From a virus, in the IMG/VR virus record IMGVR_UViG_3300018410_000043, positions 1-25,186 of that record: a stretch of 25,186 bases of DNA; one strand, 5' to 3'. Position 1 is the first letter of the stretch. Each line of letters starts with the position of its first letter. The notes beneath the pieces are model-generated. The model was not told where the DNA came from, ran no database searches, and was given only the letters and a program-made list of their open reading frames with translations. Positions 11,701 through 14,191 of the stretch are shown here, in pieces. A program made the position numbers and the translations under genes.

Positions 11701-12867
11701 ATGGCAAACGTTCTTACTGATTTGGCGGCAGACATTTATGTGGCCGCTGACGTTGTTGGCCGCGAGTTAGTCGGCTTTATTCCAGCATCAACAATCAACG
11801 CAGATGGTTCTGAAACTGCTGCTGTTGGTCAAACTGTGCGCTCATTCGCAACGCGCGAAGCATCAGCCGTTGATATTACGCCTTCTATGACTATTCCAGA
11901 AGGCACAGATCAAACCATCGATAACAAAACGCTGACAATGACAAAACAGCGTGGTGTTCAGATCCCATACACAGGCGAAGATGTACGCTTGTTAAATGGT
12001 GGCGCTGGTTATGAAACCGTTTATGGTGATCAAATCGCACAAGCGATGCGTACACTTGTCAACGAAATGGAAGCTGACCTAGCAGAAGAAGCATATACAA
12101 ACGCTTCACGCGCTGTTGGTACTGCTGGCACAACGCCATTTGGATCAAACTTTGATCTGGTTGCAGAAGCCCGTCAAGTTTTGGCAGATAACGGAATGCC
12201 AATGAATGATGGTCGTATTTCACTTGTTATGAATACTGCCGCTTCAACAAAGCTTCGCAATTTGGCATCACTTTCATCAGTAAACCAAGCTGGCAATGAC
12301 ACTTTATTGCGTCAAGGCACCTTGCTTGATTTGCAGGGCGTTATGATCAAGGAAAGCGCACAAGTTCAGTCGCATACTAAGGGCGGCGCAACAGGTGCTT
12401 TGATCAATAACGTAGCTGGTGAAGCTGTAGGTCAAACTACACTAACGCTTGATACAATAACAGTTAATACAACTGGTATTGTCGCGGGTGACGTTGTTAC
12501 CTTCGCTGCTGACACAACAAATAAATATGTTGTGAATACTGGCTTGGTTGCAACCTCTGGTGATATTGTTATTGGCGATCCGGGCTTGTTAATTGCTGCG
12601 CCAAATAACAATGCGATGACCATTGGCAACTCATTCACTGCGAACGTGATGATGCACCAGAAAGGCATGGAGCTTGCAATGCGCGCACCAGCAAAGCCAA
12701 TCGGTGGTGATGCAGCAGTTGATGTGATGATTGTTCAAGATCCGACTTCTGGTTTGGTCTTTGAAGTATCTGTTTACAAAGGCTTTAGCAAAGCAATGAT
12801 CCAAGTGGGTGTTGTTTACGGCTACAAAGCTTGGAACAGCAAAGCAATCGCCACAGTTATGGGCTAA
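11701..12867 (+). CDS. Major capsid protein, P22 coat (gp5)-like
   Basis: A 388-aa coat protein. The N-terminal LTDLAADIYVAADVVGRELVGF and the downstream AVGQTVRSFATREASAVDI, IDNKTLTMTKQRGVQIPYTGED and ISLVMNTAAS follow the P22 coat protein 5 family. Residues about 235-310 form a strand-rich Thr/Val/Asp section (TLTLDTITVNTTGIVAGDVVTF) that corresponds to the inserted domain of that family, and the C-terminus has GLVFEVSVYKGFSKAM.QVGVVYGYKAWN. P22-like coats assemble on scaffold without proteolysis. AAGGAG at 11690-11695 is the strongest ribosome site among the late genes, as expected for an abundant protein, and a terminator follows directly. Confidence 0.88.
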   Translation: MANVLTDLAADIYVAADVVGRELVGFIPASTINADGSETAAVGQTVRSFATREASAVDITPSMTIPEGTDQTIDNKTLTMTKQRGVQIPYTGEDVRLLNGGAGYETVYGDQIAQAMRTLVNEMEADLAEEAYTNASRAVGTAGTTPFGSNFDLVAEARQVLADNGMPMNDGRISLVMNTAASTKLRNLASLSSVNQAGNDTLLRQGTLLDLQGVMIKESAQVQSHTKGGATGALINNVAGEAVGQTTLTLDTITVNTTGIVAGDVVTFAADTTNKYVVNTGLVATSGDIVIGDPGLLIAAPNNNAMTIGNSFTANVMMHQKGMELAMRAPAKPIGGDAAVDVMIVQDPTSGLVFEVSVYKGFSKAMIQVGVVYGYKAWNSKAIATVMG

Positions 12868-12873
12868 TAGATC

Positions 12874-12893
12874 GGGGGCTTCGGCCCCCTTTC
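12874..12893 (+). terminator. UUCG-loop terminator after the coat gene
   Basis: GGGGGC (12874-12879), TTCG, GCCCCC (12884-12889) form a perfect six-pair G/C stem with a stable UUCG loop, followed by TTTC. It begins seven bases after the coat stop. The T run is short, so some read-through into the downstream basic-protein genes is likely, giving a step-down after the coat gene. Confidence 0.75.
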
Positions 12894-12911
12894 TCACCAC
12901 AGGAGGTTAAT

Positions 12912-12983
12912 ATGCCGCGCCCTTATTTAAAGAAAAAAGGTCTGATCGTTAAGAAGAAGAAGGCCAAGAAGAAGAAAAAGTAA
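12912..12983 (+). CDS. 23-aa lysine-rich peptide
   Basis: A very short gene: ATG at 12912, six bases or so after a perfect AGGAGGT (12901-12907), one of the best ribosome sites in the window, and a TAA directly abutting the next ATG at 12984. The product begins MPRPYLKKKGLIV and ends in a run of ten residues of which nine are lysine; 13 of 23 residues are Lys and there are no acidic residues. It resembles the lysine-rich tails of DNA-condensing proteins. I know no family for it. Its strong ribosome site and position at the head of a cassette of basic proteins make it likely to be translated. Function is unknown; a DNA- or capsid-binding peptide is a reasonable guess. Confidence 0.65.
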   Translation: MPRPYLKKKGLIVKKKKAKKKKK

Positions 12984-13178
12984 ATGGCTGCTAGACGCTC
13001 AAGAAAACGCAAATCAACGATAAACTCTGCTGGCAATTATACAAAGCCAAAGATGAGGAAGCGCTTGTTTTATGCCATCAAGAGTGGATCTAAAGGTGGT
13101 CGTGCTGGTCAATGGAGCGCAAGAAAAGCGCAAATGCTGGCAAGGCGATATAAGGCTGCTGGCGGGGGTTATAAATAA
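12984..13178 (+). CDS. Small basic phage protein (SARKAQMLA motif)
   Basis: A 64-aa protein rich in Lys and Arg with nearly no acidic residues: MAARRSRKRKSTINSAG, then TKPKMRKRLFYAIKSGSKGG and GQWSARKAQMLARRYKAAGGGYK. The segment TKP..RKRL...IK.G.KGG.PGQWSARKAQ.LA..YK..GGGYK is one I associate with a recurring short protein of marine phages and some giant viruses, of unknown function. It starts immediately after the stop of the 23-aa peptide and its stop overlaps the next ATG by one base. Composition suggests nucleic-acid binding or virion packaging. The family link is from memory and not checked. Confidence 0.65.
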   Translation: MAARRSRKRKSTINSAGNYTKPKMRKRLFYAIKSGSKGGRAGQWSARKAQMLARRYKAAGGGYK

Positions 13179-13405
13179 TGGCCCTTAAAAAGAACCAGCA
13201 ATCATTGAAAAAATGGACGCGCCAGAAATGGGGTTACACCGGCAAGAAAGGCAAAAGCCGATATTTGCCTAAAGCCGTAAGGGATAGCTTAACGCCAGCA
13301 CAGAAAGCGGCTGGTTCCAGAGCAAAGAATAAAGCAACGAAAGCTGGCAAGCAAAGTGCCAGATATACAAAAGCAGAGCGCAGGGCATTGCGGAGATTAA
13401 GATGA
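13178..13405 (+). CDS. Small basic phage protein (DUF5872-like)
   Basis: A 75-aa protein with the pattern SLKKWTRQKWGYTGKKGKSRYLPKAV, then SLTPAQKAAGSRAKNKATKAGKQ and a polybasic C-terminus (KAERRALRRLR). The W.KQKW....GK...RYLPK....LSPAEKAA..RAK...KKGKQ layout resembles DUF5872-type proteins reported in viruses, whose function is unknown. It is rich in Lys/Arg, has one Asp and one Glu, and lacks hydrophobic core segments, so it may be disordered until bound to DNA. It overlaps both neighbours (one base before, ATGA after), which shows the cassette is translated as a unit. DUF assignment is tentative. Confidence 0.62.
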   Translation: MALKKNQQSLKKWTRQKWGYTGKKGKSRYLPKAVRDSLTPAQKAAGSRAKNKATKAGKQSARYTKAERRALRRLR

Positions 13406-13683
13406 GAAAACGTGATCCGCGCATAAAAAGATTAGGGGTTTCTGGTTTTAACAAGCCAAAAAGAACGCCTAATCATCCCAAGAAATCTCATGTTGTTTTG
13501 GCAAAGGTTGGCGATAAGGTTAAAACAATTCGCTTTGGGCAGCAGGGCGTAAAGGGCGCGGGTAAAAACCCAAGGACAGCGGCGCAGAAAGCAAGGCGTA
13601 AATCGTTTTTAGCGCGTCATCAAAAGAATATTGCAAGAGGTCGCATGAGTCCAGCATATTGGGCTGCAAAGGTTAAATGGTGA
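13402..13683 (+). CDS. Small basic phage protein (KKSHVVLAKVGDKVKTIRFGQQG motif family)
   Basis: A 93-aa strongly basic protein. A compact strand-like segment, KKSHVVLAKVGDKVKTIRFG, is followed by the GQQGVKGAGKNP turn and a helical basic end (KARRKSFLARHQKNIARGRM, then SPAYWAAKVKW). I associate this KKSHVV..K.GDK.K.IRFGQQG...RH.KNI..G.MS.AYWA..VKW sequence with a recurrent uncharacterised protein of marine phages. The first half could form a small beta fold, so unlike its neighbours it may be structured. It is the last of the four basic genes and lies four bases before the head-tail connector gene. Its placement suggests a virion or packaging role; this is inference. Confidence 0.65.
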   Translation: MRKRDPRIKRLGVSGFNKPKRTPNHPKKSHVVLAKVGDKVKTIRFGQQGVKGAGKNPRTAAQKARRKSFLARHQKNIARGRMSPAYWAAKVKW

Positions 13684-13687
13684 TTAA

Positions 13688-14191
13688 ATGGCACTAGATA
13701 CAACAATCGGTGGGACAGATACAAATAGCTATATCACTTTAGCTGAGTGGCAAGCATACTGGTTAGAGCGTAATATTGATGTTTCGCAGCATGGTCACGA
13801 TGCAGCCCATGAGGCTAATCTTGTGCAAGCGGCTCAATGGATAAATCAGACTTATAATTTCGTCGGTGATAAGCAATATCAATATCAAGCGATGGCATGG
13901 CCTAGATTAACTATGCATCTGGTAGAGGGCTGGCCGATTGATCCTGATACCATCCCGCAAGATATAAAGGACGCACAGGCTGAAATGGCCTATTTGATAC
14001 ACGAAGGCGCTACGCCTTTTGCAAGCGTATCAGGCGGCGCTGTGGTGCGTACTAAAAGCAAGGCTGGGCCAGTGGAAACAGAAACCGAATATACAAACTT
14101 CAGAGAAATACCGCGTTTCGTGGCGATTGAAGGGTTGGTTTCAAGATATACTGTATTCGGTGGTTCACAGATTAAAATGGTGAGAGCATGA
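13688..14191 (+). CDS. Head-tail connector (DnaT-like/Ad1 adaptor family)
   Basis: A 167-aa protein. The N-terminal pattern TTIGGTDTNSYITLAEWQAYW, followed by EANLVQAAQWINQTYNFVG, AMAWPRL and PDTIPQDIKDAQAEMAYLI, matches the phage family labelled DnaT-like ssDNA-binding protein in databases. In phages that family is in the structural module and acts as the first head completion ring under the portal, which fits here after the coat genes. The C-terminal KSKAGPVETETEYTNF...PRFVAIEGLV is typical of the same family. The database name should not be read as evidence for replication function. It overlaps the next gene by ATGA. Confidence 0.75.
   Translation: MALDTTIGGTDTNSYITLAEWQAYWLERNIDVSQHGHDAAHEANLVQAAQWINQTYNFVGDKQYQYQAMAWPRLTMHLVEGWPIDPDTIPQDIKDAQAEMAYLIHEGATPFASVSGGAVVRTKSKAGPVETETEYTNFREIPRFVAIEGLVSRYTVFGGSQIKMVRA

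Follow-up and report, generated by a model that had tools for sequence, protein, structure and literature searches.

The viral DNA analysed here (the window; 25,186 nt, IMG/VR record IMGVR_UViG_3300018410_000043) carries four small genes for very basic proteins between its major coat gene and a head-tail adaptor gene, and the first of them encodes a lysine-rich peptide of only 23 residues. The locus raises the question of whether so short a reading frame is a gene at all and, if so, what such proteins do beside the head genes. All features of the window described below lie on the plus strand. The coat gene (11701..12867), the partner of the 23-residue peptide p23, is of the P22 coat type (PF11651, E 9.3e-13; phrog_283, E 2.5e-70). 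It is followed by a GC-rich hairpin with a UUCG loop, recognised from sequence and fold (GGGGGCTTCGGCCCCC; 12874..12889), and by p23 itself (MPRPYLKKKGLIVKKKKAKKKKK; 12912..12983). The AGGAGGT Shine-Dalgarno (SD) site that an earlier note on this DNA had placed ahead of p23 is present in the sequence at 12901..12907. The p23 stop and the p64 start abut with zero gap (TAA, then ATG), p64 (12984..13178) overlaps p75 (13178..13405) by 1 nt, p75 overlaps p93 (13402..13683) by 4 nt, and 4 nt separate p93 from the adaptor gene Ad1 (13688..14191; phrog_477, E 2.4e-31; PF20557, E 5.3e-35), the right boundary of the slot. These coordinates and junctions agree with the earlier description of four touching or overlapping basic ORFs of 23, 64, 75 and 93 aa on one strand (12912-13683). 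The net charges of the products are +13 (p23), +20 (p64), +23 (p75) and +26 (p93), with pI values of 11.0-12.0; the neighbouring proteins are acidic (coat, -14; portal, -37; scaffold, -5; the adaptor as well).

The peptide contains 12 Lys, one Arg and no acidic residue (57% K+R), so the 13 lysines counted previously are in fact 13 basic residues. It is rare, being present in 26 IMG/VR stretches, and sampling of IMG/VR with one degenerate DNA pattern and one coat query recovered 13 distinct full-length DNA versions (haplotypes). They read MPR[PAT]YLKKKGL[VI][VA]KKK, then vary over a stretch and finish in KKKKK, with 23 or 25 codons in all. The differences among the 13 versions are mostly synonymous (pN/pS 0.085); the ratio is 0.08 on codons outside the search pattern and 0.079 among the versions retrieved by the coat query alone, where third positions make up 19 of the 30 variable sites. 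In the pair formed by the window and one relative (L034), pN/pS is 0.073 for p23, 0.12 for p64, 0.11 for both p75 and p93, and 0.26 for the coat gene. p23 thus genuinely codes for protein and is under selection. Its lysine codons in the window are mostly AAG (9 of 12), as against 172 AAG and 193 AAA in the other genes counted, and codons 7-9 are almost always AAG AAA AAA across relatives. In keeping with the supposition that the peptide is undescribed, it matches no family in Pfam, PHROG, NCBIfam or the other family libraries searched; nor was a description of phage peptides like it found in the open-access literature. BLAST gave no match in isolate phages, and because low-complexity filtering affects that search, the absence of p23 from isolates is weak evidence.

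p23 has a fixed place behind the coat gene. In every copy p23 follows a P22-type coat gene at 47-49 nt (in the window, 44 nt lie between the coat stop and the p23 start), with the hairpin and an SD-like site ahead of it, and its stop codon touches or overlaps the start of the next gene. Paired changes preserve the hairpin stem in relatives (GGGGAGC..GCTCCC, GGGGGG..CCCCCC). The earlier note regarded this element as the coat-gene terminator; the hairpin is real, but a terminator scan of the window hairpin made no call, the required T-run being absent, and a terminator role is therefore only possible. The RNA fold of the coat-p23 junction as a whole is not beyond that of shuffled sequences (z -1.07); the hairpin is local and strong. 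The genes that follow p23 vary, being p64, p93 directly (L017, L019, L243, L251), another ORF (L249) or a p93 remnant (L010), so that p23 goes with the coat gene more closely than with the cassette. Loss of the 23-codon ORF from relatives that keep its neighbours, which had been named beforehand as a sign against the peptide, is not what was found: p23 is kept in the relatives that have its neighbours behind the coat gene, and the contigs L082 and L083 substitute another Lys-rich peptide.

In these two contigs, the p23 slot is filled by an unrelated 29-residue Lys-rich, AT-hook-like peptide, MPKGMGTYGTKKGRPPKKKGGKKKGGKKK (L082:1504-1593; L083:4329-4418). The coat stop, the hairpin, the SD site and a stop/start overlap (TAATG) are retained, and downstream of the peptide come a further small basic gene and p64-p75-p93, in that order. 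A swap of one Lys-rich peptide for another would be predicted where charge counts and the precise sequence does not; coming from two closely similar contigs, it only suggests a charge-based role. As for the AT-hook family (PF02178), p23 lacks the GRP core and gave no match, MPKGMGTYGTKKGRPPKKKGGKKKGGKKK has GRPPKKK yet no Pfam match, and a 55-aa relative from L016 scored E 0.16, below the cut-off.

The three longer proteins match PHROG profiles over most of their lengths: p64, which has two predicted helices (model pLDDT 79), belongs to phrog_17747 (E 1.5e-32), p75 to phrog_14910 (E 2.3e-16) and p93 to phrog_7595 (E 1.1e-37). All three are families of unknown function, so that membership says nothing on role, and p23 is a member of none of them. 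Searches of Pfam, NCBIfam and PDB with p64, p75 and p93 gave nothing above threshold, and no convincing relatives of solved structure were found for them by sequence. A fold search with the p64 model, which was built on an alignment of viral contigs only, returned nothing but relatives of p64 itself and a single fusion with the annotation ParB/sulfiredoxin. The set occurs in roseophages, pelagiphages and HMO-2011-type phages, and p93 also in cyanophages. p93 and p64 are each present in more than 500 IMG/VR stretches, and marine viruses repeatedly carry p64-p75-p93 as one block, which together with the PHROG matches supports the earlier description of them as recurring marine-phage proteins of unknown function.

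The position of the set differs between genomes. Among 42 coat-anchored loci long enough to judge (near-identical contigs kept), the set, or p93 on its own, stands behind the coat gene in 9, in the portal-MuF gap in 17 and ahead of the portal gene in 5, and was undetected by tblastn in 11. Thus 31 of the 42 loci have the basic set in their head region, and none has it in two places. In Celeribacter phage P12053L and in HTVC034P, p93 or p64/p75 lie outside the capsid gene block. No coat relatives were found in bacterial genomes, and these therefore offer no prophage or host clue. The earlier picture of a coupled four-gene cassette is right in that the genes touch and their products are basic, but they form no fixed unit: p23 stays by the coat gene, and p64, p75 and p93 relocate.

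Structure prediction gives p93 a compact fold of a beta hairpin and helices (pLDDT 89), for which none of Foldseek's candidates among solved structures reached Z >= 2. Similarity to DUF5754 (PF19058) is weak; the window p93 scores 16.4 bits, below the gathering threshold of 27.4, and 13 of 19 p93 relatives match it with a best E of 0.005. A likewise weak similarity of the window p93 to DUF6321 is below the gathering cut-off. Meanwhile, fold and sequence searches with p93 reached longer phage proteins. Gp125 of Vibrio phage ICP1, an annotated capsid protease (phrog_9979; Peptidase_S78_2/XkdF), carries the p93 domain at residues 182-263, after an XkdF-type peptidase domain (hhalign probability 98.3, E 1.8e-14), and an FG...YW...W pattern is common to both. 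In Aeromonas phage 4L372XY gp107 and Vibrio phage 1.101.O gp105, the p93 domain lies ahead of a Peptidase_S78_2 domain. The fusions therefore come in two orders, and all three genes (L262:2952-3788; L264:3279-4202; L265:3276-4442) are located between portal and scaffold/coat. p93 itself lacks the XkdF protease domain (PF14550) and matches the accessory domain of the fusions only. The fusions tie the p93 domain to head assembly and are the best evidence for its action there. They support the earlier assignment of these proteins to the head module, although relatives carry the set elsewhere too. In contrast to free-standing marine p93 (+16 to +30; +26 in the window), the same domain in its fused form has a charge of about +2 in ICP1 and the Aeromonas phage and of +11 in the longer 1.101.O stretch. 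Because fused copies are far less basic, p93 probably has a conserved job beyond plain DNA neutralising; the charge is apparently an addition in the free-standing marine proteins, separate from the core function, and the label "histone-like", a conjecture for the set as a whole, is too simple for p93.

Our tentative reading, which we hold to be nearly as probable as not, is that p23 is a polycation of the head module, binding nucleic acid and working beside relocatable basic head proteins. The tiny polycation would be made together with the coat protein and would bind by charge, either to packaged DNA or to nucleic acid at the assembling head; if so, it may be present in virions. p64, p75 and p93 would be part of the same head module, working with p23 in a joint job or alongside it, and p93 would be a domain for head assembly, present in other phages as a fusion to the head protease. 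p23 may thus be a phage-made polycation for building or filling the head. In favour of this reading are the low pN/pS of p23, its constant place behind the coat gene, its replacement in L082 and L083, the crowding of tiny basic ORFs around p64, p75 and p93 described below, the head-region position of the set in most coat-anchored loci and the protease fusions. The low charge of the fused domains, the isolates with these genes outside a capsid block, the 11 coat relatives in which the set went undetected and the rarity of p23 weigh against it. Adenovirus mu and baculovirus P6.9 are, like p23, very short, extremely basic and made late. By short length and extreme basicity p23 falls among viral protamine-like polycations; it is built on Lys and not on Arg, and the likeness is one of composition, with no homology claimed.

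Several other readings were weighed. The four proteins could be late-expressed factors that bind nucleic acid or ribosomes in the host cell, at the nucleoid, on transcripts or in translation, and that ride in late operons without being part of the head. High charge suits binding to RNA no less than to DNA, and in P12053L, HMO-2011 and HTVC034P the genes stand at late-operon ends or beside non-structural genes. The head-protease fusions, a hit in PHROG to a minor head/DNA pilot protein, and the repeated placement in the head block of coat relatives point the other way, and we consider a host-side role fairly unlikely. It is unlikely, too, that p23 serves mainly as a cis-acting leader whose poly-lysine translation sets the amount of p64 or p93 through the touching stop and start. 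Such a leader would account for the strong SD site of p23, for a next gene without a good SD site in the window, and for the touching or overlapping stop and start in all lineages. However, the next gene changes between lineages and p23 does not, and the non-lysine head MPR-x-YLKKKGLVV is conserved like the tail with synonymous change free, although stalling on poly-Lys would also conserve residues.

Binding of p23 to a protein, by which it would bridge or decorate the acidic coat lattice, the scaffold or the portal, would fit its locking to the coat gene and the negative charges of these partners, and T7-type phages also carry a small extension or ORF directly after the coat gene. We nevertheless think it quite unlikely, as the unrelated AT-hook-like, Lys-rich replacement in the slot speaks for unspecific charge over a fitted surface. 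The T7-type coat-downstream "head protein" (phrog_12582, a 10B-like extension) shares its place after the coat gene with p75, and p75 and T7-type ORFs (L267, L268, L270) have in common a short motif, LTPAQKAAxxRAxNKA, at a tblastn E of about 0.3-1 that makes homology a candidate only; unlike p75, the T7-type ORFs are not strongly basic. A 10B-like origin of p23 itself, in which frameshifting or readthrough would extend the coat protein into p23, is hardly credible. The p23 frame of the window is indeed open back into the coat gene (a 50-codon ORF from 12831), but a product of this type needs a fixed frame relation and a frame open into the coat gene, and across relatives p23 has neither. Its frame relative to the coat gene is -1, +1 or 0, which excludes a frameshift product, and in L007, L010 and L034 in-frame stops lie between the coat stop and p23.

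The head-polycation reading of p23 can be widened, though we regard the wider form as doubtful: marine tailed phages may carry a large overlooked class of Lys-rich peptides of 15-50 residues, including p23 and the MPxGKGTYGSKxGRPPKKK family, that would be interchangeable on the strength of their charge and not of their sequence and, together with the relocatable basic proteins of the head, would serve as protamines of the phage or as counter-ions in packaging. Small cations and polyamines are the generally accepted means by which DNA is neutralised in tailed phages, and several eukaryotic viruses encode protamine-like peptides. If true, a selected, coat-locked polycation of 23 residues and a wider class near head genes would make the idea of phage-encoded counter-ions directly testable. 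Such short ORFs are often uncalled and low-complexity filters hide them, which leaves a gap in annotation; for these reasons, and because trypsin shreds such peptides before mass spectrometry, existing virion proteomes may have missed them.

At 156 loci retrieved by way of p93 or p64, we surveyed ORFs of 15-45 codons that have an SD site ahead and a Lys+Arg content of 38% or more. There are 43 within 600 nt of p64, p75 or p93 (0.20 per kb), as against 10 elsewhere on the same strand (0.012 per kb) and 3 on the other strand (0.003 per kb). Tiny basic ORFs are thus about 17 times denser beside the basic genes than elsewhere on the same contigs, a figure uncorrected for all unannotated basic genes nearby, and one or more occur at 46 of the 156 loci. 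A scan with the core pattern GTYG..K.GRPPKKK found at least 120 stretches with at least 96 distinct peptides, most of them of 19-50 residues, and many of those among the matches listed stand beside p93, p64 or MuF. The widespread unannotated family MPxGKGTYG[ST]KxGRPPKKK has variable Lys-rich tails and an AT-hook-like core, and occurs near p93, p64, MuF or the coat gene.

Other small genes were seen in comparable places. Three peptides encoded after p93, near portal/MuF, resemble the N-terminus of p23 (MPGKYLRKSG.., L039:2169; MPYKDLKKQG.., L040:171; MPRKDMKKSG.., L049:1541), a likeness that makes homology a candidate only. In L037, L038, L041, L042, L044, L065 and L070-L072, the coat-downstream slot holds a different small gene, some 50-200 nt downstream of the coat gene; its product, MEEKKKPGRKPKLVKM...DVHPSEVENYKxGDYKV, also has a basic PGRKPK stretch. 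The coat-downstream small gene of L014 and L016 ends in KRGRPKKK.
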